Source of the DNA: a virus
Strand: one strand, 5' to 3'
DNA: 39,711 nucleotides
Virus record (IMG/VR): IMGVR_UViG_3300009506_000165
Coordinates: 1-39,711 of that record
The notes under the pieces were generated by a model. That model saw only the letters and a list, made by a program, of their open reading frames with translations, did not search any database and was not told the DNA's origin. Positions 4,419-30,465 of the stretch are shown here, one piece after another; the first letter of the stretch is position 1; every line of letters starts with the position of its first letter. Made by a program: the position numbers and the translations under genes.

Positions 4419-4439
4419 GGCCTCGCACCGTAACGGCCC

Positions 4440-15062: not shown

Positions 15063-15090
15063 ACGGCCCCCACCCGAAGGTGAGGGCCGT
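15063..15090 (-). terminator. UUCG-loop intrinsic terminator of the Tra-like operon
   Basis: Read on the minus strand the hairpin has a 12-bp stem (one G-U pair) closed by C(UUCG)G, the very stable tetraloop, directly after the last gene of the membrane/translocase operon. On the plus strand the same hairpin has a C-A mismatch, so it is tuned to leftward transcription. Confidence 0.75.
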
Positions 15091-15109
15091 CCCCGTCGCT
15101 GCCCGAACC

Positions 15110-15313
15110 CTACCAGGCCACCTCCAACAGGATCCCCACCCCCAGACCAGCCACCACCACGCACGCCACCGGCACCGCCGCCACCGCCACCCGGGCCACG
15201 AACGGCGCCCGCTCACCACCAGGACCCGGCGGCTCGTCCGTCACCCCCCACCCCCACCAGCCAGCCACACCGGCCACCAGCACCGTCACCACCGCCACGA
15301 CCATCGCCGTCAC
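15110..15313 (-). CDS. Small two-span membrane protein
   Basis: A 67-residue protein with two hydrophobic segments (residues about 3-23, AMVVAVVTVLVAGVAGWWGWG, and about 40-65, VARVAVAAVPVACVVVAGLGVGI) around a Pro/Gly/Glu loop. GTG start overlaps the stop of the nuclease-like gene. Spd-type small membrane proteins of this size accompany TraB in Streptomyces plasmids; that link is inferred from context. Confidence 0.55.
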   Translation of the reverse strand: MTAMVVAVVTVLVAGVAGWWGWGVTDEPPGPGGERAPFVARVAVAAVPVACVVVAGLGVGILLEVAW

Positions 15314-15732
15314 CCCCGCTTCCCGACCAGCACCCGCCACCACCACTTCCGCAGCGGCGACGACTTCGACTTCGACCAATCCCACGGCGCCGCACCCAGA
15401 GACAGCACCATCAACCAGTGCACCGGGACCACGCCGAGCACCCAGACCCGGCCCACCTCCCGACCCCAGTCGTCCACATCGGTCGGGACGACCACGACCA
15501 GGCGGGGCCACAGCAGGAACCGGAGCCGCCACGTCGCCAACCTGCCCCGGACGGTTCCCCCATCGGGGGCATCGATCCGCCCCACCCGGATCCGCCGTCC
15601 GGCCCGGTCCACGACGGTGTCCCCGTCGATGATGCGGCTGATCAGGGTCACCCGCCGCCCGCCGGGGACGACACCGATCACGGCCAGCCACACAACCCAG
15701 ACCACGACAGCGGCGGCCACGACCCGGATCAC
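15310..15732 (-). CDS. Membrane-anchored staphylococcal-nuclease-like (TNase) protein
   Basis: A 140-residue protein with an N-terminal membrane anchor (residues 1-22) and an SNase-like OB-fold. Catalytic signatures align with S. aureus nuclease: IDGDT (D36, D38, T39 for D19, D21, T22), R49 for R35, IDAPD (D54 for D40, D57 in place of E43), and DDWGR with R91 for R87. The general base is thus Asp instead of Glu. The fold is short; the C-terminal helices are truncated and replaced by a basic Trp-rich tail. GTG start overlaps the upstream stop. It probably acts outside or at the membrane on DNA. Confidence 0.75.
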   Translation of the reverse strand: MIRVVAAAVVVWVVWLAVIGVVPGGRRVTLISRIIDGDTVVDRAGRRIRVGRIDAPDGGTVRGRLATWRLRFLLWPRLVVVVPTDVDDWGREVGRVWVLGVVPVHWLMVLSLGAAPWDWSKSKSSPLRKWWWRVLVGKRG

Positions 15733-16280
15733 AGGTCGAGATCCTCGAGGCGGCGCCGGTCGCGGCGGCTGGCCCGCAGCGTCGTCCGACCGGTCCGGCC
15801 GGCGGCGATGAAGTCGTCCAGCCAGAGCCGCTCGTCGGACGGGTCGAGCAGATCCTCGACGCTGGTCTTGGCTCGCTGTTCCCGCTGGACAGCGTGCGCC
15901 GTCTCCCACGTCCGCATCGCCGCCGGCGCCCACTCCGCCTCGGTGAGCTTCCCGTTCACCCAGCTGGCCGCCTTCACCGGCTCGGTGCCCTGCATCGGGA
16001 GGAGCAGCATCCGGTTCGTCAGGTCCGACACCCGTAGCTCGCCCTCCAGCTCGGCCACCCGGGCCGACGTCTTCGGTGCCGCTGCCCGGGCCTCGGCCAG
16101 CTCCCGCCGGGCCCGGGCCCGCCACCGGATGTTGGCGGCCAGGAGCCCGACGGCGAACACGAGGACGACAGCCCCGAGGCCGGGAGCGGCGGCGCCCGCC
16201 TCGGCCACCCTGGTCAGCACCTTGAGGACCACGCCGAGCACCAGGAGCCCGACGATTCCCTTCACGATTCCTGTTCTCAC
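15729..16280 (-). CDS. Membrane coiled-coil protein of the Tra-like operon
   Basis: A 183-residue protein with two membrane segments (residues about 8-24 and 33-50), a cytoplasmic coiled coil (RARARRELAEARAAAPKTSARVAELEGELRV) and a mixed C-terminal domain ending in basic and acidic residues. Unrecognised. GTG start at 16280 follows GAGGAGGG. It is separated from the translocase gene by the only real gap (161 bases) in this operon, which contains repeats. Confidence 0.55.
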   Translation of the reverse strand: MRTGIVKGIVGLLVLGVVLKVLTRVAEAGAAAPGLGAVVLVFAVGLLAANIRWRARARRELAEARAAAPKTSARVAELEGELRVSDLTNRMLLLPMQGTEPVKAASWVNGKLTEAEWAPAAMRTWETAHAVQREQRAKTSVEDLLDPSDERLWLDDFIAAGRTGRTTLRASRRDRRRLEDLDL

Positions 16281-16441
16281 ATCGCCCTCCTCTGGGCCGT
16301 GACGCGGGGAGCGCTCACACTCCCCTACTGGACGTTTCCCCTGGTCAGGACCCGGATGGTGTGTGACCTCACCGTCACACCGTCACACCGCCCCCGACCA
16401 GGGAAAACACGGCGTGGCACTGTGACGGCCGGACGAACCCC
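16281..16441. repeat. Repeat-rich gap next to the TraB-like gene (possible cis transfer or regulatory site)
   Basis: This gap holds five copies of TGTGAC/GTCACA in mixed orientation (16362, 16374, 16382, 16421, 16455; the last is inside the 3' end of the translocase gene) and a near-perfect inverted repeat TTTCCCCTGGTC (16335-16346) / GACCAGGGAAAA (16396-16407). In Streptomyces plasmids the cis-acting transfer locus often lies next to tra. A single GACCCGGA octamer (16349-16356), the pSVH1 TraB recognition word, also occurs. A plain operator region for the 16280 gene is the simpler alternative. Confidence 0.4.
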
Positions 16442-18499
16442 CTAGTCAGGGGCCGTCACATCGAATTCCTGCTCGAACGCGGCGACGACGTCGATCTGCC
16501 GCCAACCCCAGACCTGCCGGCCGCCCGGCTCCGGGCGGAACCGCCGCGTCTTCACGGCCACCAGGTCGCGCAGCGCCTGCTCCGTCATCGCGCCGTACCG
16601 GTCCGGGTTCACGATCCGCAGGGACTCCAGCACGAACGCCACCTGGACCCCGTCGTCGGACGGTCCGTAGCAGCCCAACACGTCGTCCAGGACCTGGCCA
16701 CGGGACACCGCCTCAGCCACCGGGACCGGCGGCACGACACCGGCCAGGCGCTCGACGATGGCCTCAGCCGACACCTTCGGCCAGCGGACCAGGCGGCCCT
16801 TGCCCTCCACCACCAGCCACGACATCCCGGCGTCGTCCTGGGAGAGGTCCGACGGTGCCCAGCCACGGCTGTGCGCCCGGGGGCCGAGCACCGCGTTGCC
16901 ATCACGCCACTCGTCCACGGCGAAACAGATCGCCGTCCCGCAGGATTTCAGCAGGTCAGCGGCCTTGGTGAGCGACCCGGGCCGCTGCGTCGACCAGATC
17001 GCTCCCACGCCGTACCCGGCTCCCTTGCGTGCCACGACCCCGCCGAGCCGGATGATCTCCGGGCCGTGCACGGGGTGCTCGACCGCCTCGGCCATCTCGT
17101 CCACGGACAGGAGCTCGAGCTGGAACCCGGGGGTGGCGTGGATCTCCGGGGTGATCCTCGACCAGCCCCTGGCCTTGTACTCGGGTGCCCTGGCCCGCCA
17201 CACGGCGTCGAGGTGGCGGAGGCCGGCCAGGACCGCCTCGGCGGCCTCGTCGTCGTCGGCGGTCGTCACCGAGCTGGCCACCCTGCCTTCCAGCGGGGCG
17301 CCATCACTGCCGCCCTTGGCCCACACGCATCGGACCCCGGCGCCGGCAGCTGCGGCGGCGGCCACCAGCGGCCGTAGGGCGGCAGTGGTCTTCCCGGTGC
17401 CGGACTGGCCGCCGATGATCACGTTCCGGTCGGCGAGTTGGATGGCCACCGTCTCCCCGTCGAGAGTCTGGCCGATCGGCACCCGCCACAGGTCGACGGG
17501 GGTGGCCGGGTCGGCCAGTGGCCATGGCACGTCGGCCGGGTCCTCGTCGAGGATCGTGACCCGGAGCCGGCCGGCCGAGTGGCCACGGCCAGCGTGGCCG
17601 AGGCGGAGCCGGTCGAGGGCGACGTCCATGGCCGAGCTGACCCCGGCGGCCACCTTGGCCACGTCGTCGGCGGCCACCCCTCCCGGGAGCTCGAGGACCC
17701 CGGTCTCGCCGTGGCCGGTGTGGTGTGGCCGCTCCGCCCACCTGGCCTCATGACCGGCGGCCAGGGCCCTGGCCACGGCGGGGATCTTGGTGGCCACGGC
17801 GGCCATGACGGCGGCGGCCACCAGGCGGCCACCCGTGGCCGGGTCGTCGTCGACCTCGGTGGCCACCTGCGGCCGGAGGCTGGCCACCAGGCCCATGGCC
17901 ACGGCCAGACGCCCGGCCGGCCAACCGGCGGCCACGGCCACGATGGCCACGACGGCGATGGCCAGCCACCGGCCACCGGCCACGAGCCACCACCCGGCGG
18001 CCACCACGGCGGCCACCGTGGCCACGGCCGTGAGGAACAGGGCGGCCACGATCACCGCGGTGTTGGCCACGAACGCGGTTCCGGCCACGGCGGCGGCCAC
18101 CCCGTCGTCACCGGCCACGGTGGCGGTGGCCATGGCCGCTCCGGCCACGACGGCCAGGAGGACCACGGCGGCCACGGTGAGCCACCCGGTGGCGCCGGCC
18201 ACGGTGGCCACGACTGAGACGGCCAGGGCGACGACGGCGGCAGCGGCGGCCCGTTCCTCGACGGGGGTGGCGAGTTCGGCCATCCGGGCCCGGCGGGCGG
18301 CGTGGAGGTCGCCGAGCTCCTGGCCGGTGGTCCCGGCGAGCTGGGCGGCGGCGATGTCCCGGGTCCAGGCCCGGCCGACGTCGCGGGCGTCGTGGTCGAG
18401 GCACCACCATGGCCACCATGCTCCGGCGGCTGCTGCGGGGCGCCAGGCGTGGCGGGCGGTGGCCCACCACCATGCGAGGAGGCGACGGATGCGGGTCAC
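16442..18499 (-). CDS. TraB/FtsK-type DNA translocase
   Basis: A 685-residue protein. The N-terminal third has four to six membrane segments (residues about 85-225). The motor follows: Walker A GGQSGTGKT (about 358-366), Walker B LLSVDE (about 460-466) and an FtsK-like STQRPG segment. The last 70 residues (VLESLRIVNPDRYGAMTEQALRDLVA, then WGWRQIDVVAAFEQEF) look like a winged helix, where TraB/FtsK read DNA. The architecture matches actinomycete plasmid TraB/TraSA, which moves double-stranded DNA between cells, rather than a phage packaging enzyme. The start is the GTG at 18499 overlapping the upstream stop. Confidence 0.8.
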   Translation of the reverse strand: MTRIRRLLAWWWATARHAWRPAAAAGAWWPWWCLDHDARDVGRAWTRDIAAAQLAGTTGQELGDLHAARRARMAELATPVEERAAAAAVVALAVSVVATVAGATGWLTVAAVVLLAVVAGAAMATATVAGDDGVAAAVAGTAFVANTAVIVAALFLTAVATVAAVVAAGWWLVAGGRWLAIAVVAIVAVAAGWPAGRLAVAMGLVASLRPQVATEVDDDPATGGRLVAAAVMAAVATKIPAVARALAAGHEARWAERPHHTGHGETGVLELPGGVAADDVAKVAAGVSSAMDVALDRLRLGHAGRGHSAGRLRVTILDEDPADVPWPLADPATPVDLWRVPIGQTLDGETVAIQLADRNVIIGGQSGTGKTTAALRPLVAAAAAAGAGVRCVWAKGGSDGAPLEGRVASSVTTADDDEAAEAVLAGLRHLDAVWRARAPEYKARGWSRITPEIHATPGFQLELLSVDEMAEAVEHPVHGPEIIRLGGVVARKGAGYGVGAIWSTQRPGSLTKAADLLKSCGTAICFAVDEWRDGNAVLGPRAHSRGWAPSDLSQDDAGMSWLVVEGKGRLVRWPKVSAEAIVERLAGVVPPVPVAEAVSRGQVLDDVLGCYGPSDDGVQVAFVLESLRIVNPDRYGAMTEQALRDLVAVKTRRFRPEPGGRQVWGWRQIDVVAAFEQEFDVTAPD

Positions 18500-18957
18500 C
18501 GGTCCACGTCCGACCATGGGCAGTGGAGCGTGATGGCCTCGTCGTCCTGGGCGGGTACCGAGCACGTCATCTCGTAGCCACCGGCGTTGGTGACCCTGAT
18601 CGGGCCGTAGTCGACCGGGGCCGGCTCGCCACCGGGGAGCACAGCCCACATGGCCACAGGCAGCGACGCCAGCCAGATCCCGACTCCGACCGCCAGCCAC
18701 ACCCGCTGCCGCCGCCACAGCGGTGCCGTGGGCTCGGAGGCCGTGGCCCGGTCGTGCGCGTCGAGGAGCTCCTGGACCCGGCCCGTGCAGGTGTCCGGGG
18801 CCAGAGCCCAGACCCCGTCACCGTGGCGCAAGGTCTCGACCGCTACGAGCTGGGCCCGCTCAGCGGCCTCGGTCGGCAGCTCCGGCTCACCGGGCCACCG
18901 GGCCACGTCGGCGGCGACCAGCGCCGCCAACGTGTGGTTGTCGACCTCGATCCTCAT
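18496..18957 (-). CDS. Single-span membrane protein upstream of the translocase
   Basis: A 153-residue protein with a soluble helical N-terminal domain (residues 1-80, acidic), one membrane segment (about 87-108, VWLAVGVGIWLASLPVAMWAVL) and a short outer domain containing two cysteines (MTCSVP, LHCPW) that could form a disulfide. Unrecognised. ATG overlaps the upstream stop and its own stop overlaps the translocase start, so it is likely a partner of that protein. Confidence 0.6.
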   Translation of the reverse strand: MRIEVDNHTLAALVAADVARWPGEPELPTEAAERAQLVAVETLRHGDGVWALAPDTCTGRVQELLDAHDRATASEPTAPLWRRQRVWLAVGVGIWLASLPVAMWAVLPGGEPAPVDYGPIRVTNAGGYEMTCSVPAQDDEAITLHCPWSDVDR

Positions 18958-19676
18958 CCCACCTTCTCCTCTGCTCGCTCTTCCTTCATGTCCCGCGCCC
19001 AGTTGCTGACCGTCTTGCGGGGCACGTCGACCTCACGGGCCGTCTCCGACACCGACGTCCCGTCGGCCAGGAGCTCCCGGGCCCGGGCCACGGTGGCCGG
19101 GTCGTGCTGGCCGGCCGCCTTCCGTGCCGTCCGCTTCCTGCTCGGCCTCGGCGCCGGTGCCGGGGCGGGCACGGGGATCGGGGCCGGGTCGGCGTCGTCG
19201 GCGTGGACGACCCGGAGGCGGTGCCCGTGGCCCCCGCCCGCCTCCGGGTCGGGAGCCGTCACGGGCAGCGGGTTGGGGACTACCCGGCTGCCGGCTGGCT
19301 CGACCTCGGCCACGTCCTCATCCGGTCGGGCCCACAGCAGGTAGAGGCCACCCATCGTCATGATCAGATCCGCCAGGGCCGGGTAGACGGTGGCGATCCA
19401 CGCCTCCTCGGTGAGGCGGACGTAGGCCGAGATGTGCCCGTAGGACACGGCGGCGCCGATGGCCCACACCGACGCGCCGAACATGGAGATCACACCCCGC
19501 CGCCACCCGGCGACCCGGTGGCCCCGGACGATGAGCTCGAACGCGAGGAGCTGCCCGACGGGGGCGACCATGCGGGTCGCTCCGGCGGTGACGTCTGGGG
19601 CCATGAGGGCGTTGGCGGCCATGGATGCGGCGAGCCCTCCCCAGAGGCACAGGGCGGCGAGGCGCCGGTCGGTCAT
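18954..19676 (-). CDS. DUF2637-like membrane protein with C-terminal HTH
   Basis: A 240-residue protein. Residues 1-120 contain four membrane segments (LAALCLWGGLAASMAANALM, VAPVGQLLAFELIVRG, GVISMFGASVWAIGAAVSYG, IATVYPALADLIMTMGGLYLLW), resembling DUF2637/Spd proteins of actinomycete conjugative elements. A Pro/Ala linker (about 130-185) leads to a helix-turn-helix (about 195-225, VARARELLADGTSVSETAREVDVPRKTVSNWARD). It may tie plasmid DNA to the membrane. ATG 19676 or GTG 19679 are both possible. Confidence 0.65.
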   Translation of the reverse strand: MTDRRLAALCLWGGLAASMAANALMAPDVTAGATRMVAPVGQLLAFELIVRGHRVAGWRRGVISMFGASVWAIGAAVSYGHISAYVRLTEEAWIATVYPALADLIMTMGGLYLLWARPDEDVAEVEPAGSRVVPNPLPVTAPDPEAGGGHGHRLRVVHADDADPAPIPVPAPAPAPRPSRKRTARKAAGQHDPATVARARELLADGTSVSETAREVDVPRKTVSNWARDMKEERAEEKVG

Positions 19677-19966
19677 CACCCGAACACCGCCGAGATCAGT
19701 GCGTTCCCGGTGGTCATGACCCACGTGATGATGACCCACAGGGCACCACCGAGCAGGACTCCGATGATCAACGGCCGCTTCATCACGGCCCCGATCGCGC
19801 CCCGGGGGATCTCCCCGGTGGCACCGCCGATCAGGAGCAGGATGAACCCGATCACGATGACGGCGTAGACACCCCACCTGGCGTAGTACTCGATGGTGCT
19901 CTTCGCCTCGCCGAGCTTGCTGTCGATGGCGGTGGACTGTGCGATGAAGGCGATCAGCGGAGCCAC
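19676..19966 (-). CDS. Small two-span membrane protein (TrbC/VirB2-like topology)
   Basis: A 96-residue protein with a polar N-terminal part and two membrane segments (residues about 33-52, VYAVIVIGFILLLIGG, and about 66-84, LIIGVLLGGALWVIITWV) joined by a short basic loop. The topology recalls pilin-like or TrbC-type subunits, but no pilin signature is seen. The GTG at 19966 is chosen because AAGGAGG lies 7 bases before it; a longer ORF would place that site inside the coding region. Confidence 0.6.
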   Translation of the reverse strand: MAPLIAFIAQSTAIDSKLGEAKSTIEYYARWGVYAVIVIGFILLLIGGATGEIPRGAIGAVMKRPLIIGVLLGGALWVIITWVMTTGNALISAVFG

Positions 19967-20298
19967 GATCCGCCCTCCTTCCAATCACCGGACCGGCCCC
20001 ACCGGGGGGTGGACTGGGCGACCTGGTCCCGTGCGGCGCCCCACCCACGGGCAGCGCCTCGCACGGCGGCCGAGCGGGCAGCGGTCTGGGCCTGGGCCCG
20101 TGTCGGGGCCTGCTTGCGGGCCTCGGTGGCCACATCGGCCCCGAACCCCTTGGCGGCACCCCAGCCCCGGGAGGCTCCCCGGGACGCCGTGCGGGTGGCG
20201 GTCCCAGCCCACCCGGTGCGGCCCTGGGGGCGGCGGGCCGGGGGCCGGCTCGAGGGGGCGCCGTTGGGCGCCTCGGTCTTCTTGCCTCGGCCCCACAT
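19954..20298 (-). CDS. Basic Ala/Arg/Gly/Trp-rich protein of the Tra-like operon
   Basis: A 114-residue, strongly basic, low-complexity protein with internal duplications: GASRGWGAAKGFGADVATEARKQ and VRGAARGWGAARDQVAQ. It could bind nucleic acid or the inner face of the membrane. The ATG at 20298 overlaps the previous stop (TGATG), and the end overlaps the next gene by 13 bases. Unrecognised. Confidence 0.5.
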   Translation of the reverse strand: MWGRGKKTEAPNGAPSSRPPARRPQGRTGWAGTATRTASRGASRGWGAAKGFGADVATEARKQAPTRAQAQTAARSAAVRGAARGWGAARDQVAQSTPRWGRSGDWKEGGSWLR

Positions 20299-20537
20299 CA
20301 GGCGTTCACCAGCTTCACGGCCTGGGCCCGGGAGTAGTAGAAGCTCTCGTCGCCGTACTGGGCGTGGTGGACGTAGATGATGCAGTGCACACCGTCGCCG
20401 CAGTACTCGACGCCGGTCACCCGGAACTCGGTGCCCTCGGCGTAGTCCTCGCATCCGGCGTGCTCGAAGACGTCGTCGATCCCGAGGTCCTCGGCGGCCA
20501 CCTCGTCGCCGGTCGTGCTGTTCGATCCCCATCTCAT
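20298..20537 (-). CDS. Small acidic hypothetical protein, first gene of the Tra-like operon
   Basis: A 79-residue acidic protein with an N-terminal acidic helix and a strand-rich C-terminal half (TEFRVTGVEYCGDGVHCIIYVHHAQYGDESFYYSRAQAVKLVNA) that looks like a compact beta fold with three cysteines. Unrecognised. The ATG follows GAGGTGAC. It is preceded by a 117-base leader with a large hairpin. Confidence 0.6.
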   Translation of the reverse strand: MRWGSNSTTGDEVAAEDLGIDDVFEHAGCEDYAEGTEFRVTGVEYCGDGVHCIIYVHHAQYGDESFYYSRAQAVKLVNA

Positions 20538-20575
20538 GGTCTGTCACCTCGCTGGTCGGCGGTAGGGGGAACGGG

Positions 20576-20614
20576 GCCGGCCCCGGTGGTGGAGGGGGTC
20601 CACCTGGGGCCGGC
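20576..20614 (-). promoter_or_regulatory. Leader hairpin of the Tra-like operon
   Basis: GCCGGCCCC-GGTGG pairs with CCACC-T-GGGGCCGGC (9 + 5 bp with one bulge, 10-base loop) in the untranslated leader between the promoter at 20661-20689 and the first gene at 20537. It may attenuate or stabilise the message. There is no adjacent T-run. Confidence 0.45.
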
Positions 20615-20657
20615 TCCGGCGTGCGGTCCGGTCCGCCGTCCGGACCAGCACCGCCCC

Positions 20658-20686
20658 TTGATCGTAAACCCGATCCGGTTGATAAT
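20658..20686 (+). promoter_or_regulatory. Rightward leaderless promoter of the gene at 20693
   Basis: TTGATC (20658-20663), 17-base spacer, GATAAT (20681-20686), then six bases to the ATG at 20693. The -10 box is embedded in the palindrome GTTGATAATCAAC (20678-20690). It overlaps almost fully with an opposing leftward promoter. Confidence 0.65.
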
Positions 20687-20689
20687 CAA
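20661..20689 (-). promoter_or_regulatory. Leftward promoter of the Tra-like operon
   Basis: On the minus strand: TTGATT (20689-20684), 17-base spacer, TACGAT (20666-20661). It would start RNA near 20654, upstream of the gene at 20537. Polymerase cannot sit on this and the rightward promoter at once, so the two are mutually exclusive. Confidence 0.6.
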
Positions 20690-20692
20690 CAC

Positions 20693-21079
20693 ATGTCGTA
20701 CGATCATCTACCGGACCAGGACGGAGGCCGTACCCTCGTGCTCGTGACCAGGCCCCGACAAGACGTCCCCGAAGACCTCGCCCGCCGGCTCGCCGAGGCC
20801 CGCGACCGAGGCGCCACCGACCACGACGCCTACGCCGCCCTGGCCCCCACCGACCCCCTCGAACGGGTCGCCTGGTCCACCCCCCTCGGCATGGACTCCG
20901 ACATCCACCTCGACGCCGTCACCGAATGCCGGGCACGCCTCATCCCCTGGCGGTGGATCTCCGTCGCCGCCGGCAACCCCGACGACGACCGGGTCACCGA
21001 CCTCCACCGCCGGGCACTGGAACGGGCACTCGACCGGCAGGCCGACCGCCGCCCCCCGCAACCTGACCGTAACAGGTAG
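20693..21079 (+). CDS. Hypothetical leaderless protein opposite the Tra-like operon
   Basis: A 128-residue protein, unrecognised. It has helical segments (VPEDLARRLAEARDRGATDHDAYAAL; VTDLHRRALERALDRQ) and a central aromatic part (CRARLIPWRWISVAAG). The ATG lies 6 bases after a -10 box, suggesting leaderless translation. Because it is controlled by a promoter that excludes the Tra-like operon promoter, a regulatory role is possible but unproven. Confidence 0.55.
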   Translation: MSYDHLPDQDGGRTLVLVTRPRQDVPEDLARRLAEARDRGATDHDAYAALAPTDPLERVAWSTPLGMDSDIHLDAVTECRARLIPWRWISVAAGNPDDDRVTDLHRRALERALDRQADRRPPQPDRNR

Positions 21080-21119
21080 AATCACCCACGGCCCGTCCGC
21101 CAAGACCAGGGCCACACAT

Positions 21120-21148
21120 GAGGCCCCGGGAGTCGCCCCCGGGGCCTC
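21120..21148 (+). terminator. Hairpin terminator after the gene at 20693
   Basis: GAGGCCCCGGG and CCCGGGGCCTC form a perfect 11-bp stem with a 7-base loop, 41 bases after the stop. T-run absent, which is common for high-GC actinobacterial terminators. Confidence 0.65.
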
Positions 21149-21173
21149 GCTGCGTCACCGCCGTAGGCTCACC

Positions 21174-21231
21174 GGGGAGGGGAGGGGACCACGGCTAGGC
21201 ATCCCAACGCTGGCCTGAGGGCCCCCTCCCC
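21174..21231. repeat. Long-loop inverted repeat beside the integrase remnant
   Basis: GGGGAGGGG (21174-21182) can pair with CCCCTCCCC (21223-21231) across a 40-base loop, just past the integrase stop. It may be a bidirectional terminator or part of the former attachment region. The core attP sequence cannot be identified by eye. Confidence 0.3.
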
Positions 21232-21238
21232 CACCGAG

Positions 21239-21550
21239 TCACCCACGATCCAGATACGTCGCATCGAGTACGTAGTCGTGTAGATCGATCGCAGCAGCGT
21301 TCAGATACACCTCCGTGCTGCTGATCGACTCGTGGCCCAGGAGACGCTGCAGGATCGGCATCGGGGTCCCCGCCAGAGCGTGCTCCAAGGCGAACGTGTG
21401 CCGCCACTGATGCGACGTCACATGCGCCCCCACCAGCCACGACGCCTCCAGCATCACCCGGGCCGCCGTCCCCGGCGTCACGTTGCCCTTCGCCCCCGGG
21501 CCCGGGCGCTTCGACGCCCACATCGGCCCCGCGTACCGGCCCTTGCCGAG
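21239..21550 (-). pseudogene. Truncated tyrosine recombinase (integrase), C-terminal catalytic part only
   Basis: About 100 residues of an integrase catalytic domain remain: HQWR (box II His and Arg), LGH (second His) and STEVYLN with the nucleophilic Tyr. The first catalytic Arg and the whole N-terminal arm-binding and core-binding parts are missing. The frame stays open further upstream, but past about 21550 its sequence is the shadow of the opposite-strand gene. An ATG at 21523 could make a 94-residue fragment, which would lack recombinase activity. The exact break is an estimate. Confidence 0.7.
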
Positions 21551-21655
21551 ATCAAGGCGGCCGATGGGCTCGTCGTCACCACCGGCCACCACACCGGCGA
21601 GATCGACCCAGCGGGGCGGTGGTACGTTGACGCCGTCATCGACGGAGCGTCGGTG

Positions 21656-21955
21656 ATGGGGGACATCACGGTGGGCAGCAACACGATGCTCGTCAACTCG
21701 AAGGTGTACGGCGGGGTCGAGGGCCTGCCGTACGCCTCGGCGGTGCGACTCATCGGCAACACCATCTTCGGCAAGGGCTTCAGTGGCATCAGGTACCACG
21801 CCGATGGTGAGGACGTTGTCGTGGCCCCGACCGGGGCCCGGATGATGATGCGCCCCGGGTTCACCTGGGACCCATCGGGGGCGGGCGAGGTCAACCCGCC
21901 ACAGGTCGCCCACGACCTGTTCTGGCCGGACGGCTCCACCGAGGAGACCCCGTGA
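21656..21955 (+). CDS. Hypothetical beta-rich protein, possibly 5'-truncated
   Basis: A 99-residue ORF from ATG 21656 (GACGGAGCG upstream); the frame is open further upstream. The sequence GDITVGSNTMLVNSKVYGG...LIGNTIFGKGFSGI has short-strand/turn periodicity like a left-handed helix or surface beta-helix piece, followed by a Pro/Trp-rich tail. Upstream of about 21550 the frame runs into the integrase remnant on the other strand, so this gene may have lost its original start at the same junction. Confidence 0.45.
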   Translation: MGDITVGSNTMLVNSKVYGGVEGLPYASAVRLIGNTIFGKGFSGIRYHADGEDVVVAPTGARMMMRPGFTWDPSGAGEVNPPQVAHDLFWPDGSTEETP

Positions 21956-22239
21956 CCGGCGAATCGCCACTCTCCAACCTCCGACGGGCCGCTGCTAAGT
22001 GGGCCGAGCAGGTCGGGCCGGAGGGCTTGGCGCTCGGCTCCGGGCCACTACTGACCGGCTCCGAGCGGGAACTGTTCCACCGGGCCGAGCAGGTGGAGCT
22101 GGCCGCTGCCCGCCACGGCCTCGACCGGGAGGCGCTCGCAACCGCCGTCTCCGACGCCCTAGCCCAGTCATGGAAGCTGGAGTTCGACGACGCCCTGCGG
22201 TCCGCCATCCAAGACCTCACCACCGAGGAGGGCCCGTAG
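21952..22239 (+). CDS. Hypothetical helical protein
   Basis: A 95-residue mainly helical protein (LRRAAAKWAEQVG; ERELFHRAEQVELAAARHGLDREALATAVSDALAQSWKLEFDDALRSAI). Unrecognised. GTG start overlaps the preceding stop (GTGA), and a perfect terminator follows 52 bases after its stop, so these two genes form a short unit. Confidence 0.55.
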   Translation: MTGESPLSNLRRAAAKWAEQVGPEGLALGSGPLLTGSERELFHRAEQVELAAARHGLDREALATAVSDALAQSWKLEFDDALRSAIQDLTTEEGP

Positions 22240-22290
22240 CACACCCCCCGCAACCGGCCCGCAACGGCCTACCATCGGACACGGACGAGG

Positions 22291-22316
22291 AGCCCCCAGC
22301 CCATCAGCTGGGGGCT
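22291..22316 (+). terminator. Intrinsic terminator
   Basis: AGCCCCCAGC and GCTGGGGGCT form a perfect 10-bp stem with loop CCATCA, followed by CTTCC. It separates the 21656-22239 unit from the early operon promoter downstream. Confidence 0.75.
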
Positions 22317-22399
22317 CTTCCACGTCCCAGGGGCGGGCTGTCACACCTCGCCGTCAGCATGGCCGTGTGGGTCGAACGGCTCATCTGCTCTGGAAACCC

Positions 22400-22431
22400 T
22401 TGCACGGTCAACGGTCACCGTGTACCGTGCA
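22400..22431 (+). promoter_or_regulatory. Early operon promoter within a 31-bp palindrome
   Basis: TTGCAC (22400-22405), 17-base spacer and a weak -10 TACCGT (22423-22428), seven bases before the ATG at 22436. A 31-bp near-palindrome at 22401-22431 covers it: outer arms TGCACGGT/ACCGTGCA, inner arms ACGGT/ACCGT, centre 22416, with only two mismatched pairs. It is a strong candidate operator for a repressor of the rightward early operon. Confidence 0.6.
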
Positions 22432-22435
22432 TCAC

Positions 22436-22609
22436 ATGGTCAAACGCAGCAACACAGCAGCGGCGACACAAGCCCGCATGGCCGCCGCCGCACACCAGCG
22501 GGCACACAACCCCGACACCCTCGGCCACGCACTCCGCACCATCCGAGCCGCCGTGGCCGCCGACCTCGTCACCACCGACCAGGTCATCACCGAGATCACC
22601 GCCGCCTGA
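22436..22609 (+). CDS. Small helical protein, first gene of the early operon
   Basis: A 57-residue protein: a basic Ala-rich N-terminal part followed by a helical C-terminal half (LGHALRTIRAAVAADLVTTDQVITEITAA). The ATG is 7 bases after the predicted -10, so the mRNA is probably leaderless. Placed directly at an operator, it could be a small autoregulator, but no DNA-binding motif is evident. Confidence 0.5.
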   Translation: MVKRSNTAAATQARMAAAAHQRAHNPDTLGHALRTIRAAVAADLVTTDQVITEITAA

Positions 22610-22766: not shown

Positions 22767-23237
22767 ATGCCTCTGAACACGACCGAGACCACCACGACCA
22801 CCGACACCAACCTCAAGGCCACGCTCCCCCCGGGACCGTGGCAGGACGAACCCGACAAGGCCCTGTGGAACGACGAGACCACCGGCCTCCACTGCCTCAT
22901 CATCCGGCACCCCTCGGGCCACCTGTGCGGCTACGTCGGCATCGACACCGCCCACCCGTGGCACGGCGACGCCTACAACGACCACTACGAGATCACGGTC
23001 CACGGCGGCCTGACCTACGCCGACAGCAGGGACGACGACGAGATCTGGTGGTTCGGCTTCGACTGCGCCCACCTCGGCGACCTGACCCCTCGGCACTTCC
23101 ATGCCGACCCGGTCACCGAGGCCGCCATCGCCCTGTGTGGAGACGGAATCGGCGGCGGCAACACCTACCGCGACTTCGGCTACGTCACCGCAGAGGTCAC
23201 CCGCCCCGCCGAGCAGCTCGCGGCGGTGACGGCGTGA
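22767..23237 (+). CDS. Conserved phage protein with paired Trp/Cys motif, function unknown
   Basis: A 156-residue protein. Its core, GYVGIDTAHPWHG...VHGGLTYA...WWFGFDCAHLGDLTP...YRDFGYVTAEVTRPAEQLA, is a pattern I recognise as recurrent in small phage proteins of many hosts, with no known function. The order is Thr-rich disordered head (1-20), alpha/beta body (25-120) and a final helix. A strong AAGGAGGG sits 9 bases before the ATG, so it is probably well expressed early. Confidence 0.65.
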   Translation: MPLNTTETTTTTDTNLKATLPPGPWQDEPDKALWNDETTGLHCLIIRHPSGHLCGYVGIDTAHPWHGDAYNDHYEITVHGGLTYADSRDDDEIWWFGFDCAHLGDLTPRHFHADPVTEAAIALCGDGIGGGNTYRDFGYVTAEVTRPAEQLAAVTA

Positions 23238-23920
23238 CCATCAGCCTGAACACCGACCAGATCCTCACCCGCCTCGACCACGGCAACCAATGGACCCAAG
23301 GCACCTGGGGCGACCCCGCCGACACCGAGGCACCCACCTGCCTCCACGGCGCCATCCGGGCCTGCCAACCCACCCCCGGCGACGCCTACCTCATCCGACA
23401 GGTCGCCGAACGCCAGGGCTGGGGCACCACCTTCAACGACGCCGTCGGTACCGAGTGGCACGACATCGAAGTAGCGCTCCTCACCCACCGCGAGGTCACC
23501 GACGCCGACCTCGCTGACACGTTCGGCCCGACCTGGGAGATCACGGTCGACACGGTCCGCACCATCGCCGCCGCCACCCCCACCCAGATCCAGGCACTAG
23601 CCGCCGCCAGGGCCGCCGCCTGGGACGCCGCCTGGGCCGCCGCCAGGGACGCCGCCTGGGCCGCCGCCAGGGACGCCGCCTGGGACGCCTGGGCCGCCGC
23701 CTGGGCCGCCGCCAGGGACGCCGCCTGGGCCGCCGCCAGGGACGCCGCCTGGGCCGCCGCCAGGGACGCCGCCTGGGACGCCACCAATGCCGGCGTCGTG
23801 ATCGATCTCGTCGGGCAGCACGGACTCCCCGCCGACCACATCCGCACCATCGCCGGCCCGTGGTGCGCCGTGTTCCCCGACTCCGCCCTCGCCCACGCCG
23901 TCACCGCACTGGAGGACTGA
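23234..23920 (+). CDS. Protein with Ala/Trp tandem-repeat helix
   Basis: A 228-residue protein. Residues 1-120 are an ordinary alpha/beta domain (GTWGDPADTEAPTCLHGAIRACQPTPGDAYLIRQVAERQGWG). Residues about 122-183 are tandem octads of the type DAAWAAAR, giving a long amphipathic helix with a Trp on every second turn. A final globular piece contains GQHGLPADHIRTIAGPW. Similar Ala/Trp repeats occur in other phage small proteins of unknown role. GTG start overlaps the previous stop. Confidence 0.6.
   Translation: MTISLNTDQILTRLDHGNQWTQGTWGDPADTEAPTCLHGAIRACQPTPGDAYLIRQVAERQGWGTTFNDAVGTEWHDIEVALLTHREVTDADLADTFGPTWEITVDTVRTIAAATPTQIQALAAARAAAWDAAWAAARDAAWAAARDAAWDAWAAAWAAARDAAWAAARDAAWAAARDAAWDATNAGVVIDLVGQHGLPADHIRTIAGPWCAVFPDSALAHAVTALED
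23599..23782 (+). repeat. 24-bp tandem repeat inside the gene at 23234
   Basis: Units of the kind GCCTGGGCCGCCGCCAGGGAC repeat in register with the codon frame, with a shorter unit in the middle (GCCTGGGACGCC). Copy number could change by slippage without breaking the frame. Confidence 0.75.
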
Positions 23921-24787: not shown

Positions 24788-25122
24788 GCGACACCGAGCG
24801 CTACATCAAGTTCCGAGTCACCGTCAGCACCACCCTGGAGATCAACTGCATCCCCGGCGAGCTGGACGGGCTGAACACCTCCCGAGACGTCGAACGGTTC
24901 CTGACCGACGCCATCACCGATGGCGCCTACGACGACCTCGGCTGTGACTACGACGATCACCGCGTACTCACCATGCGGCCTGACGGCAGGGACATCGCGT
25001 GGGTCTGGATCGAAGACGAGGAGTGGCCGACCCTGGCCAAGCGCCTTGGCCTCACCACGGGGATCCAGTCCCTCGCCGACCGCAAGCGGGACTTCGCCGC
25101 CACCAAGGACGGTGAGTCGTGA
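24784..25122 (+). CDS. Hypothetical protein, paralogue of the gene at 24273
   Basis: A 112-residue protein sharing its N-terminal strand pair with the product at 24273, then an acidic middle (YDDLGCDYDDHR) and a Trp-rich strand (DIAWVWIEDEEWPTLAKRLGL). Unrecognised. ATG at 24784, preceded by GGAGG. Confidence 0.55.
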   Translation: MSDTERYIKFRVTVSTTLEINCIPGELDGLNTSRDVERFLTDAITDGAYDDLGCDYDDHRVLTMRPDGRDIAWVWIEDEEWPTLAKRLGLTTGIQSLADRKRDFAATKDGES

Positions 25123-25403
25123 TCGCCCTCCAGCCCATCACCCTCACCTTCGCCGTCACCTGGCTCGCCGTCATCGCCATCCTCGGCGCCGCCGCATGGC
25201 ACTGGTGGGACGCCATCACCGGCCCCGTCGCCCGGTTCCTGTTCGGCGACCCCGGCGAGCCGCTGGGGTGGGACGTGGAGCTCCACATCGTCGAGCTCCA
25301 CCGGGCCGCCCGGACCCCCGACGAGATCGCCGAACGGCTCGGTCTCACCTCGGACGCCGTCGAGTGGATCATCGGCCGCTACGACGACGGAGACGCAGCA
25401 TGA
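25119..25403 (+). CDS. Membrane-anchored protein with HTH-like C-terminus
   Basis: A 94-residue protein with one membrane segment (residues about 8-30, LTFAVTWLAVIAILGAAAWHWW) and a C-terminal segment ELHRAARTPDEIAERLGLTSDAVEWII that reads as a helix-turn-helix of the sigma-region-4/HTH_38 type. A membrane anchor plus HTH would place DNA at the membrane. GTG start overlaps the previous stop. Confidence 0.55.
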   Translation: MIALQPITLTFAVTWLAVIAILGAAAWHWWDAITGPVARFLFGDPGEPLGWDVELHIVELHRAARTPDEIAERLGLTSDAVEWIIGRYDDGDAA

Positions 25404-25882
25404 GCGACCTGCCGTTCGACGAAAACGAGATCGTCACGATCTCCCAACTTCTCCTCGCCGCCGTCGGCGCCAGCCGTGCCCGAGACGAGGTCCGCTACAA
25501 CGCCCTCACCGCCGAGGCGCTCGACCGGATGGAAGCCCTCGACCCCGGCATGCACCGGGTGATGTGGCACATCAACCTCACCCTCATCGGTTCCGCCTGC
25601 CACATCGGCATGCAGGGCGACGACACCGACTGGCGCCTCATCGCCACCGACATGGAGACCGGCGACGTCGTCAACCCCGACGACCGCCCCGAAGCCCGGC
25701 CCGCCGTGACCGCCATGCGCCTCATGGCCACCTACAAGAACGGCGACATCGACACGTGCTGCGCCCTGCTCCAGGCGGCGATGGTCGACGAGGCCGCTGC
25801 CAGTGAGATCACCTGGGCGCTGGCCCGGGTCGTGCACCTGCTCGCCAAGGACGCCGGCCTCATCGAAGGAGCTACGGCATGA
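25400..25882 (+). CDS. Hypothetical helical protein
   Basis: A 160-residue, largely helical acidic protein (EIVTISQLLLAAVGASRARDEVRYNALTAEALDRMEAL; ITWALARVVHLLAKDAGL) with a cysteine pair in the middle (CCALLQAA). Unrecognised. ATG overlaps the previous stop. Confidence 0.5.
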   Translation: MSDLPFDENEIVTISQLLLAAVGASRARDEVRYNALTAEALDRMEALDPGMHRVMWHINLTLIGSACHIGMQGDDTDWRLIATDMETGDVVNPDDRPEARPAVTAMRLMATYKNGDIDTCCALLQAAMVDEAAASEITWALARVVHLLAKDAGLIEGATA

Positions 25883-26157
25883 CCCTGCTCCCCCTCAACG
25901 ACGACGAGGTCGCCTACCTCGACCTCCTCCACGGTGACGCCAGCGACTGGGCGTACCGGACCCTCGCCAACCCCGACTCCACCCCCGACGACACGATCAC
26001 CGCCAAGGCCATCGTTCATCGGTGCGGGCCGGCACCCACCTGGCCCGAGGACGACGACCGCCTCATGGGCCTCGCCGGGCTCTGCGTCGTCGCCCTCACC
26101 TCCGGCGCCGTCGGAGCCTGCATCGGCGCCGCCATCGCCTGGGCGGTGACCCGGTGA
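25879..26157 (+). CDS. Small membrane protein
   Basis: A 92-residue protein with a soluble acidic N-terminal part (residues 1-60) and a C-terminal membrane segment (about 66-90, GLCVVALTSGAVGACIGAAIAWAV). Tail-anchored topology. Unrecognised. Overlaps both neighbours by 4 bases. Confidence 0.5.
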   Translation: MTLLPLNDDEVAYLDLLHGDASDWAYRTLANPDSTPDDTITAKAIVHRCGPAPTWPEDDDRLMGLAGLCVVALTSGAVGACIGAAIAWAVTR

Positions 26158-26297
26158 GGCCCGACCTCGTCCTCCTCGCCGGGCTCGCCTACCTCGGCCT
26201 CGTCCTCACCGCCGCCCTCGTCCTCGAGGTCGCCCTCGACCTCCACGACCGGGACGACCACCTCGACGCCACCACCTACCGCAAGGAGACCCACTGA
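26154..26297 (+). CDS. Tiny membrane protein
   Basis: A 47-residue protein: one membrane segment (residues about 4-26, DLVLLAGLAYLGLVLTAALVLEV) and an acidic/His-rich tail. GTG start overlaps the preceding stop; the next ATG overlaps its own stop. Accepted because it fits the unbroken chain of overlapping genes. Confidence 0.5.
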   Translation: MRPDLVLLAGLAYLGLVLTAALVLEVALDLHDRDDHLDATTYRKETH

Positions 26298-26449
26298 TGA
26301 CCACCACCAAGAGCAAGGGCTGGAAGCTGCCCGAAGGGGCAACCAGGTGGGAGACGTTCCTCCGGCACACCGGCGACGGTGAGACCTGGGCCATGATCCG
26401 GTTCTACAACGACGCCGGAGACCTCGTCTACGAGACGGCGGTCGGCTGA
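26297..26449 (+). CDS. 50-residue hypothetical protein
   Basis: A short protein with a Lys/Trp-rich head and a beta-hairpin-like body (TWAMIRFYNDAGDLVYETAVG). It joins the flanking genes by TGATG overlaps at both ends, the main argument that it is real. Unrecognised. Confidence 0.5.
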   Translation: MTTTKSKGWKLPEGATRWETFLRHTGDGETWAMIRFYNDAGDLVYETAVG

Positions 26450-26838
26450 TGGGTGCCGCATCCCGACGCAAAGGCGCCGCCGCCGAGAACGAGGTCGTCA
26501 AGCACCTCCGAGCCAACGGGTTCCCCACCGCCGAGCGCCGCATCGCCGGCACCGACGACGCCCTCGGCGACATCACCGGCATCCCCGGCCTAGTGCTGGA
26601 GGTGAAGAACCAGAAGGCACTCAACCTCGCCGGATGGGTCGACCAGCTCGGTGACGAACTGGACACCGCCCAGACCACCCATGGCGCCGTCATCCACAAG
26701 CGGGCCGGGAAGATCGACGTGGGGGAGTGGTACGCCACGATGCCCGTCTCCGTCCTCCTCGACCTCCTCCGGACCGCCGGGTACGGCGACGCCACGGCCC
26801 GCCCCCTCGCTGCCACGACCCCGGGGGTGGCGCTGTGA
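26449..26838 (+). CDS. Holliday-junction resolvase (Hjc-like PD-(D/E)xK nuclease)
   Basis: A 129-residue nuclease. It opens with RRKGAAAENEVVKHL (catalytic Glu at 13/15), then GD at 40-41 in DDALGDITGI, and LVLEVKNQK with E51 and K53: the E-D-ExK active site of small resolvases. It would cut four-way junctions made during phage recombination or replication, resolving concatemers before packaging. It belongs to the recombination block with the exonuclease and OB-fold-like genes. Confidence 0.8.
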   Translation: MGAASRRKGAAAENEVVKHLRANGFPTAERRIAGTDDALGDITGIPGLVLEVKNQKALNLAGWVDQLGDELDTAQTTHGAVIHKRAGKIDVGEWYATMPVSVLLDLLRTAGYGDATARPLAATTPGVAL

Positions 26839-27206
26839 CCGCCTCCCGAACCGTCCTCATCATCAACGCCGAGTACACCAACCTCTACACCGGCACCCAA
26901 GCATCCTCGCAGGTCTACCACCTCCCCGGCCTCGGCTGCATCGACAGGTCCGAACACAAGGTCGAGGTCGAAGAACGCCTCGCCGTGGCGTTCGGCCGGC
27001 GCCTCTGCGCCACCTGCACCAACCGGGTCAAGGCCACCGAGTACCTCGACGCCACCCACAAGGCACTCGTCGATGCCGGCTGGCCCGACCTCGACACCCT
27101 CGCCCACCTCGTCCCCGACGGCCTCGAGGTCCGCCTCTACGACACCCGAGGCCGAGGCCAGGCACGCCGGGTGTGGTCCTCCACCGACGCCAGGAGCAAC
27201 CCGTGA
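26835..27206 (+). CDS. Hypothetical protein of the recombination block with a CxxC motif
   Basis: A 123-residue protein. It contains GLGCIDRSEH and LCATCTNRVKATEYL, a possible zinc site formed by C, H and CxxC. Unrecognised. GTG start overlaps the resolvase stop; its stop overlaps the exonuclease start, so it is co-expressed with both. Confidence 0.5.
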   Translation: MTASRTVLIINAEYTNLYTGTQASSQVYHLPGLGCIDRSEHKVEVEERLAVAFGRRLCATCTNRVKATEYLDATHKALVDAGWPDLDTLAHLVPDGLEVRLYDTRGRGQARRVWSSTDARSNP

Positions 27207-28342
27207 CCGCCATCGCCGTCGACTCCATCGCCCCACCGCAACTGTTCGACCAGTACGACCGGTACCTCCTCCCCCGCCCCAACGGAGAACGCGCCCCCCA
27301 CACCAGGGCCAGCACCATCGCAGGCGTCCTCGACAACCGGTACAGCCTCGAACAGTGGCAGCAGCGAGTCGTGGCCAAGGGCATCGCCATGGACCAAGGC
27401 CTACGCGCCCTGGCCGCCAGCTGCGACGTCGACACCGACAAGAAGAAGTTCAAGGAGATCTGCGAAGACGCCATCAAGATCGGCGGCGGGGAACGGGCGG
27501 CGAACGAGGGCACCGGGATCCACACCCTCACCGAAACCGTCGACAAGGGCGGATCGGTCTCCGACATCCCCGAGGAGTGGCGGGACCGGATCGAGTGCTA
27601 CGTCCGGGAGCTCGACCGGGTAGGCCTACACGTCGACCCTGATCTGATCGAACGGATCGTGATCGACGACCGCAACCAGGTCGCCGGACGGTTCGACCGA
27701 GGCCTCACCCTCGACCGGGACATCACCCTCCAGTTCCCGCCCCGCAAGGGGAACAAGAAGGGACGGAAAGCCAACGTCCCCGCCGGGTCGATCCTGGTCG
27801 GCGACGTCAAGACCGGTGGGTACATGTCGTGGCTCAAGTTCACGATCCAGCAGGCCACGTACGCCAACCACACCGCTACCTACGACGAGGCCACACACCA
27901 TCGGGCGCCACGCATCGAGTTCAACACCGACGTGGCCGCCATCATCCACCTCCCCGCCAAGGGCGAACCGGAGTGCCGGATCCACTGGGTTGACCTCGTC
28001 GAGGGCTACGACGCCTACCTGACTGCCCTGGAGGCCTACGCCTTCAGGCGGGACGACAAGGCACTCACGGTCGCCGAACCGGGCGACCCGTTCGCAGGCC
28101 TCGAAGTCGAGACCGCGGCGTGGGTCCGTGACCGGATCCGGACCCTCGCCGGGAACCCCGCCGCCGTCACCGACCTCCGCAACCGGTGGCCCGACACGGT
28201 CCCCCAACCGTTCCCCCCGGACGCGACCCGCGCCCAGATCGACCAGCTCGCCCGGGTTCTCGACGTCGTCGAGGCCCGCAACCAGATCCCCTTCGGAGCC
28301 ACACGGCCCGGAGCCAACAACCAGAAAGCGAACCACCAATGA
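27203..28342 (+). CDS. Cas4/RecB-like PD-(D/E)xK exonuclease
   Basis: A 379-residue nuclease of the kind common in actinophage recombination modules. Motifs in order: GTGIH (H107), ERI (E150), GRFDR (D165), GDVKTG (D201, K203) and QQATYA (Q216/Q217, Y220), together the RecB/Cas4 active site. No iron-sulfur cysteine cluster is seen. It probably resects DNA ends for strand annealing, with the next gene as single-strand binder. GTG start overlaps the previous stop. Confidence 0.8.
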   Translation: MTAIAVDSIAPPQLFDQYDRYLLPRPNGERAPHTRASTIAGVLDNRYSLEQWQQRVVAKGIAMDQGLRALAASCDVDTDKKKFKEICEDAIKIGGGERAANEGTGIHTLTETVDKGGSVSDIPEEWRDRIECYVRELDRVGLHVDPDLIERIVIDDRNQVAGRFDRGLTLDRDITLQFPPRKGNKKGRKANVPAGSILVGDVKTGGYMSWLKFTIQQATYANHTATYDEATHHRAPRIEFNTDVAAIIHLPAKGEPECRIHWVDLVEGYDAYLTALEAYAFRRDDKALTVAEPGDPFAGLEVETAAWVRDRIRTLAGNPAAVTDLRNRWPDTVPQPFPPDATRAQIDQLARVLDVVEARNQIPFGATRPGANNQKANHQ

Positions 28343-28788
28343 CCAGCATCAGCATCGACACCATCGCCGGCCCCGACGGGGACTCCTTCAAGTTCGACGC
28401 CATCGGCGACACCGTCAAGGGCCGCATCCTCCACCTCGAGGAGTTGGAGCGGGAAAACCGCTTCAACGGCAAGACCGAGAAGGTCCTCCGGATCTCACTG
28501 GAGCTCGACGACGGCGAGACCGCCGTCATCTGGCCCGTCACCAGCACCGACGTCAACGGCAACGGGTACGCGTCCCGCATGGCCAAGGCCATCGCCGCCG
28601 CTATCCGGGCCGCTGGGGAGACCGACCTCGCGACCGGCGGGATCCTCGCCGTGAAGTTCTCCGGGGAGCAGCCCACCGACAAGGGCAACCCGGCGAAGTT
28701 GTTCCAGGCCCAGTACAAGGCGCCCGCCGAGGCTCCGGTTGCTGACGGGGACGCCGCCGACGGCGCCGTCAACGACCTCATCGGCTGA
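28339..28788 (+). CDS. Putative single-stranded DNA-binding (OB-fold-like) protein
   Basis: A 149-residue protein with a beta-barrel-like order of strands (FKFDAIGDTVKGRILHLEELER; KVLRISLELDDGETAVIWPV; GILAVKFSGEQ) and an acidic, flexible C-terminus (VADGDAADGAVNDLIG), as in SSB proteins that recruit partners by their tail. It follows the exonuclease directly. The assignment is by fold pattern and context only. Confidence 0.55.
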   Translation: MTSISIDTIAGPDGDSFKFDAIGDTVKGRILHLEELERENRFNGKTEKVLRISLELDDGETAVIWPVTSTDVNGNGYASRMAKAIAAAIRAAGETDLATGGILAVKFSGEQPTDKGNPAKLFQAQYKAPAEAPVADGDAADGAVNDLIG

Positions 28789-28811
28789 CCCGTCCGGCCG
28801 GCAGCCACTCG

Positions 28812-28839
28812 CCCACCAACCCCACGCCGGGTTGGTGGG
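28812..28839 (+). terminator. Intrinsic hairpin after the recombination block
   Basis: CCCACCAACCC and GGGTTGGTGGG form a perfect 11-bp stem with loop CACGCC in the 126-base gap before the next gene. Probably a partial terminator separating recombination and replication genes. Confidence 0.6.
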
Positions 28840-28914
28840 TGGGTGGATGCCTACCGGACCCTCCACCTCCTACCGCTTCCCCGCCGCAGCCACCCCCGAC
28901 ACCCTGGACATCCG

Positions 28915-29196
28915 ATGACAGAACGCCACATCGTCAACACCAAACAGGCCACCCTGCTCGACCTGTCCATCCACGGACTCGGGGACTGGCACACCGACAT
29001 CGCCACCCTCATCGTCCGCCTCGCCGAAGCCAGGGCCTGGCTCCACCAAGGCCACGACCCCCACGGCGTCGCCACACGAGCGGCCGCAGCCCTACCCAGG
29101 CTCCGGGAACTCGCCGACGAGCTCCCCGCCCTCCTCGACCGGGTCGAACAAGCCGCCTACCACCACGGCGTCGACCCCGGACAGGTCGCAGCGTGA
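28915..29196 (+). CDS. Hypothetical helical protein before the RepA-like gene
   Basis: A 93-residue helical protein with leucine-rich helices (LLDLSIHGLGDWHTDIATLIVRLAEARAWL; AAAALPRLRELADELPALLDRVEQAAY). Unrecognised. Its stop overlaps the RepA-like start (TGATG), so it may be a loader or regulator of that ATPase. Only a weak ribosome binding site precedes it. Confidence 0.5.
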   Translation: MTERHIVNTKQATLLDLSIHGLGDWHTDIATLIVRLAEARAWLHQGHDPHGVATRAAAALPRLRELADELPALLDRVEQAAYHHGVDPGQVAA

Positions 29197-30395: not shown

Positions 30396-30419
30396 TTCCC
30401 CAGGCCGACACCACTCATC

Positions 30420-30440: not shown

Positions 30441-30465
30441 CCACTCGACACCCACGGAGAACCCC

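Follow-up and report, generated by a model that had tools for sequence, protein, structure and literature searches.

The window analyzed here is the whole of IMG/VR virus record IMGVR_UViG_3300009506_000165, a stretch of 39,711 bp that is classed as linear. Its left end falls inside the structural genes of a phage, encoding a head-tail adaptor, a head closure protein, a tape measure, and tail proteins, while the rest carries early genes for an exonuclease, a RepA-like AAA helicase, DNA methyltransferases, and two WhiB proteins, together with an endolysin. No terminase, portal, or capsid gene was recognized in the window, the record being linear and incomplete, and the adaptor and closure, tape measure, tail, endolysin, exonuclease, and helicase genes together bear out the tailed-phage setting that had been read from the letters. 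Between the tail genes on one side and the early genes and an integrase remnant on the other sits a leftward operon built around a DNA motor, which runs in the direction opposite to the tail genes and is the subject of this report.

Relatives of one of the tail proteins were found only in phages of Streptomyces and Actinoplanes, and because the window also encodes two WhiB proteins, the host appears to be an actinobacterium. A search of viral contigs with a window tail protein gave no match. The small protein encoded at 31924-32328 fuses a LacI-type HTH (8e-10) to a WhiB domain (5e-24), and the second WhiB protein lies at 35288-35713. Elsewhere among the early genes, iterons of the word CGTTCCCC, with 12 copies in the window, are clustered at 30237-30364 and adjoin the RepA-like AAA gene (29196-30299), an arrangement that makes them a possible replication origin and gives only a hint that the phage persists as a circle.

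The operon itself is real and intact, and consists of nine leftward ORFs that extend from 20537 down to 15110, all on the minus strand. Neighboring genes overlap by 1-13 bp, with the sole exception of a 161-bp gap that follows the motor gene. In the order of transcription, the first gene encodes a 79-aa protein (20298-20537), and the second a basic soluble protein of 114 aa (19954-20298), whose ORF overlaps the upstream stop codon (TGATG). A 96-aa protein with two hydrophobic segments follows (19676-19966), with a GTG start after the sequence GGAGGG, and then a 240-aa protein with a hydrophobic N-terminal part and a C-terminal HTH (18954-19676; HTH_23, E=2e-5), an architecture that is DUF2637/SpdB2-like. 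The 153-aa protein encoded next (18496-18957) has a single transmembrane segment, and its gene has a ribosome binding site and 4-bp overlaps with its neighbors, the second of which is the traB-like motor gene of 685 codons (16442-18499). Past the gap lie three further genes, encoding a 183-aa protein with two N-terminal transmembrane segments (15729-16280), preceded by the ribosome binding site AGGAGG; a 140-aa membrane-anchored protein (15310-15732) in which an SNase-like motif (IDGDT..IDAPD..D.WGR) can be made out by eye; and a 67-aa protein with two hydrophobic segments (15110-15313).

The signals that the first-pass annotation had placed at the two ends of the operon were not supported. 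A scan with consensus motifs detected no leftward promoter between 20661 and 20689, where its matches lie on the plus strand, and no terminator at 15063-15090, where a GC-rich hairpin can be read at approximately 15063-15090 but lacks a run of T. A strong sigma-70-like leftward promoter (TTGACA-17-TACATT) is present at 15023-14995, directly after the motor operon, where it precedes a second leftward group of small genes; it serves that next group, and we rejected it as part of the motor operon.

The same annotation likened the operon to the tra/spd block of Streptomyces plasmids, and for the accessory genes this likeness is partial, since it leans on the DUF2637-like protein, which is a weak match, and on a nuclease that is unproven. 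The 240-aa product scores 19.6 bits against Pfam DUF2637 (PF10935), below the cut-off of 22.8 (E=8.8e-4), and gives no match to a leave-out DUF2637 profile that SpdB2 of pSVH1 matches at 5.8e-5; no segment of it exceeds the strict hydropathy threshold. Its C-terminal HTH is supported, and the family label is weak. It is the only accessory protein that resembles a known Spd family, and then weakly. For the proposed membrane nuclease, the motif is what survives: no significant match to Pfam, PHROGs, or the PDB was obtained (the best PHROG is an endonuclease at E=0.028), and the AlphaFold model is poor, with a pLDDT of 53.6. The sps palindrome of SpdA2 has no exact copy and no excess here, no TraR/KorSA-type GntR regulator was recognized in the window, and PADLOC reported no other defense gene in the operon.

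The motor combines an N-terminal membrane anchor, seen in hydropathy as hydrophobic segments between residues ~80 and 202, with an FtsK/TraB RecA-like core at approximately residues 320-590, in which an alignment shows Walker A (GGQSGTGKT) and Walker B (..VDE) to be intact. Its family was hard to reach with general collections: Pfam and NCBIfam hold nothing specific for the 685-aa protein, the FtsK_SpoIIIE model PF01580 misses it entirely, an alignment of all TraBs proved too divergent to find anything as a scan query, and PHROGs returns phrog_1358, an FtsK/SpoIIIE family, at E=1.9e-9. The connection to TraB came to light through the FtsK protein of the Pseudonocardia record pPaSha2 (CP052773), which matches both the window motor (3e-12) and TraB of pSVH1 (4e-26). 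We aligned 26 TraB proteins of plasmids and of AICEs into a leave-out profile that excludes the window motor, and this profile matches the motor at E=1.1e-43 over positions 192-691, whereas a profile of chromosomal FtsK proteins, made from E. coli and actinobacteria, gives no match and rules out a chromosomal FtsK identity. In a phylogenetic tree, the motor and its counterpart on a sibling contig group with the TraB proteins, apart from FtsK, with a support of 89 and on a long branch of their own. The tree was a quick search with long branches, and we use only those placements that are clearly separate.

Predicted structure gives the same picture. The AlphaFold model of the motor core has pLDDT values mostly between 70 and 93, and the solved structures that it matches best are those of TcpA, which is the conjugation coupling protein of pCW3 (Z 27.4), and of the motor of FtsK (Z 26.5). 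At the C-terminus, where a winged-helix-like end had been proposed, helices are predicted at residues 600-679 with moderate pLDDT, and the profile alignment reaches position 691 of 736, so that the proposal is consistent with both the TraB profile and the predicted helices and is held with moderate confidence. Profile, tree, and fold comparison thus agree on a TraB-type motor in a tailed phage, and on these grounds we assign the 685-aa protein to the TraB family of Streptomyces plasmids and AICEs. The FtsK-like protein of Streptomyces phage Gilgamesh does not group with the motor, which falls among the TraBs, and a phage FtsK or entry-motor family is ruled out by profile and tree alike. It is nevertheless a divergent member, with 22-32% identity to any TraB except that of the sibling; the best cellular relative in 396 Actinomycetota genomes reaches just 32%, and no phage record in the phage collection has a match, including those of phages with related tail proteins.

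The only gap in the operon holds a feature absent from the first-pass annotation. The word CCGTCACA occurs four times in the 39.7-kb window, which is about the expected number, and all four copies lie within 89 bp (16372-16460), starting at 16372, 16380, 16421 (inverted), and 16453. The cluster reaches from 18 bp short of where the motor gene ends to 70 bp beyond, with one copy within the gene and the other three in the gap, and a 16-nt imperfect inverted repeat (16334-16349/16393-16408) flanks the two tandem copies. In Streptomyces plasmids, TraB assembles on the clt locus, which contains short repeats (PMC4170104), and the experimentally mapped clt of pWTY27 comprises 16 bp of the traA 3′ end and a further 159 bp with four 7-bp repeats (PMC3583192). 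By this likeness of layout, the CCGTCACA cluster is a candidate clt, or transfer origin, to which the motor may bind, and its position at the 3′ end of the motor gene strengthens the TraB reading of the motor. The gap differs by just 2 bases between the window and the sibling contig, and the clusters in these two near-identical sequences count as one observation, not two.

We also looked for such clusters blindly, by scanning 92 TraB loci for 8-mers of low copy number that form clusters around the stop codon of traB. The scan found 60 clusters at the traB 3′ spot where 1.14 were expected, a ratio that is a description and not a probability, because words that overlap and loci that are related are counted among the 60. 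It recovers the repeat cluster downstream of traB in pSVH1 (ACCCGGAC, six copies), and finds clusters of other words in viral contig L017 and in the chromosomal Pseudonocardia loci L043 and L065.

The sibling, contig IMGVR_UViG_3300010413_000132 (L005 and L126 in our locus set), matches the window at 15098-21546 with 96% DNA identity and again at 25107-31031 with 97%. The first of these common blocks begins beside the hairpin that follows the operon and ends inside an integrase gene, and the tail genes of the sibling differ from those of the window. Since this second contig carries the same operon and the same right-hand flank, an assembly chimera is an unlikely source of the arrangement of operon and phage genes. 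The sibling encodes a complete 298-aa tyrosine integrase (6365-7261) and a repressor-like HTH protein. Of that integrase the window retains the C-terminal third, 102 of 298 codons (21239-21546, minus strand; Phage_integrase E=1.4e-8), and its lysogeny region at 21239-22598 is broken relative to the sibling, where two unrelated rightward genes of the window stand in place of the 5′ two-thirds of the integrase and of the repressor-like gene. Relatives of the sibling integrase, sought for host assignment, were not found. That the window element is a phage-plasmid is a possibility and no more: the sibling has this complete integrase and repressor-like protein, neither ParA nor ParB was recognized among the window genes searched, a RepA-like AAA gene with iterons nearby is present, and the related pPaSha2 is a circular replicon. 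A further difference between the siblings lies at 23234-23917 (4333-4938 in the sibling), where a protein with a repeated AAWAAARDA-like motif differs in copy number.

Within the block, the two motors are near identical except at residues 319-589, the ATPase core, where identity falls to 72% with sharp edges. The exchanged DNA corresponds to 16730-17550 of the window, while the two ends of the gene, like the clt-like gap, hardly differ between the siblings. Both core alleles keep an open frame, and the dN/dS between them is 0.48. The likeliest source of this divergence is an exchange with another functional allele by recombination, the alternative being a local mix in assembly.

Comparable motors occur in other elements that look like phages. 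The circular 41.9-kb record of pPaSha2 from Pseudonocardia alni encodes terminase, portal, protease, capsid, and holin together with a DUF2637-TraB pair, and the complete circular plasmid unnamed3 of P. broussonetiae encodes terminase, protease, capsid, connector, and gp10-like proteins together with the same pair. In viral contigs L018 and L019, TraB lies beside a tape-measure-like gene, and the latter also has a capsid-like gene; L017 encodes a tail protein related to that of the window. In the tree, the phage-borne motors are scattered among the TraBs of AICEs and plasmids, on three or four separate branches at the least, and of the 80 chromosomal proteins closest to the pPaSha2 TraB, most have near them none of the phage genes that were searched for. 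Because of this scatter, and because those chromosomal relatives mostly lack the phage genes searched for, it appears that plasmids or AICEs have given the TraB module to phages on more than one occasion.

Several records were noted in the course of this survey. The chromosomal loci L043 and L065 have phage genes in the vicinity of TraB, possibly those of a prophage adjoining an AICE. The linear Streptomyces record pFP3 (NC_023067) has a full set of phage structural genes, ParA, dnaB, GntR and WhiB regulators, DUF2637, and an FtsK that fails the TraB profile, and was set aside as an example of TraB; it is a further phage-like element whose genes include a block resembling a transfer region. 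Four other phage-like plasmid records, from Streptomyces NBC_01259 and NBC_01335, Amycolatopsis pAmyYIM10, and Corynebacterium phiCFAL8171I, give no match to the TraB profile, and most of them have annotated phage structural genes. The 29-kb Streptomyces decoyicus plasmid NZ_CP107886.1 is an apparent head-to-tail dimer, with the same protein accessions occurring twice, ~14.6 kb apart.

Phages are usually taken to travel in virions only, and plasmids by mating only. The block described here combines a TraB-family membrane motor with a clt-like cluster that overlaps the end of the motor gene and with closely spaced genes that encode small membrane proteins, and it is found in phages whose tails differ. 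From these sequence features, we think it probable that the operon is a DNA-transfer module of the TraB/clt type, belonging to a temperate lineage of actinobacterial tailed phages and moving double-stranded DNA between hyphae. In lysogens, or in cells that hold the phage DNA as a circle, the motor would form a hexamer on the CCGTCACA repeats, at the membrane or the tip of the hypha, and would pump unprocessed double-stranded phage DNA into the next hypha or compartment, and the accessory membrane proteins would help as spreading factors of the Spd kind. Long-distance spread would then fall to the virions, and local spread through the mycelium to the motor. The mating biology in this scheme, in which one plasmid protein moves double-stranded DNA, comes from Streptomyces plasmids and is carried over by homology.

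How else might the operon be understood? The motor could work within the mycelium only, spreading or segregating phage DNA between compartments as Spd and stability functions do, with no transfer to new cells; small membrane proteins suit spreading, a clt would be needed there too, and spreading and stability are not cleanly separable in Streptomyces plasmids (PMC4170104). We regard this as unlikely, as the same TraB carries intercellular transfer in the well-studied plasmids (PMC4170104) and nothing in the window removes that ability. Intact genes speak against a captured fragment of an AICE or plasmid that is cargo or a decaying passenger without function for the phage: the nine overlapping ORFs and the spacer are preserved, the alleles of the ATPase core stay open at the dN/dS given above, and similar captures occur in several lineages. 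An intact operon under purifying selection in related phages is in part observed already. Such a passenger is improbable, even though phages do capture mobile elements and the neighboring integrase of the window is already truncated.

FtsK-like translocases are known from other Streptomyces phages such as Gilgamesh, and by analogy with these the motor might aid infection, by drawing the DNA of an entering phage across the membrane or across septa, or by moving it during lytic growth. Its grouping with the TraBs of plasmids and AICEs, away from the Gilgamesh protein, the orientation of the operon against the tail genes, and the lack of any match to the motor among phage records, those with related tail proteins included, leave little room for such a virion or entry function. 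The least room of all is left for a system of defense or superinfection exclusion, in which a HerA/FtsK-type ATPase would act with membrane partners and a nuclease. The motor does have a weak PADLOC match to mad8 (E=1.1e-5, in the generic ATPase region) and a possible SNase-like partner, but the TraB-specific profile is far stronger, a clt-like site is present, and the operon has no other defense gene.

Conjugation-like transfer of phage DNA is thus the reading that we prefer, and the idea of spread by two routes, which is plausible, is better supported than before. Because a TraB-type pump with a putative docking site is present in a phage, and because unrelated viruses apparently gained such a pump repeatedly, such viruses may spread from cell to cell as well as by virions. 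We would extend this, as quite possible though short of probable, to the proposal that plasmid TraB/clt modules were captured time and again by tailed phages whose hosts are mycelial actinobacteria, and that these phages make up a class of viruses able to spread horizontally by two means that they encode themselves, namely in virions and through a conjugation-like transfer of double-stranded DNA between hyphae. A motor and a matching DNA site that are kept in phage genomes and were apparently gained several times make such a life cycle directly testable in sequenced strains, as pPaSha2 and the P. broussonetiae element reside in cultured hosts, and suggest that some actinobacterial records listed as plasmids are phages that may conjugate.

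Among known systems, the Streptomyces TraB/clt plasmids (pSVH1, pJV1, pIJ101, and pWTY27) share with the window a single FtsK-like membrane motor, an upstream membrane protein with a C-terminal HTH, and small accessory proteins, and in pSVH1 and pWTY27, as here, short direct repeats are found at the 3′ terminus of the motor gene or directly beyond it. The window differs from them in that its module is in a tailed phage genome, its motor forms a deep separate branch, its repeat word is another one, no GntR regulator is recognized, and the accessory proteins are not recognized Spd homologues. The AICEs likewise have a TraB of this family, clt-like repeats, and an integrase, the last of which is present in the sibling of the window, but the window has virion genes, and phage recombination and replication genes take the place of the AICE prim-pol set; its tape measure, tail, adaptor, and endolysin genes exclude an AICE identity. 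Streptomyces phage Gilgamesh is an actinophage with an FtsK/HerA ATPase and an adjoining membrane protein gene, and differs in that its FtsK-like protein falls outside the TraB clade and matches the TraB profile at E=9e-25, compared with 1e-43 for the window; the stretch of its genome that we read has no gene annotated as DUF2637.

A phage that also conjugates has a precedent in pZL12/phage ZL12, a Streptomyces plasmid-phage to which both transfer and a lytic phage cycle are ascribed (Zhong et al. 2010, J Bacteriol 192:3747, as related in PMC3583192 and PMC4487206). It too encodes an FtsK/SpoIIIE-like protein, not far from a gene for a membrane protein, but it is 90 kb in size, encodes ParAB, and relies on a different motor, in that the FtsK-like pZL12-71 is not of the TraB family by profile (E=0.2). 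The acquisition of mobilization genes is mentioned in a review of phage-plasmids, and plasmid prophages figure in a survey of the prophages of actinobacteria; the passages of these two sources that we searched, within a partial coverage of the literature, make no mention of TraB modules in phages. Further parallels are pPaSha2 and unnamed3 of P. broussonetiae, where capsid, terminase, and tail-type genes occur together with DUF2637 and an FtsK that is a TraB. Their motors lie on other branches (24-28% identity), their operons are shorter, and they are listed as plasmids, yet the gene order of pPaSha2 is that of the window: holin, leftward motor operon, integrase, and early genes.
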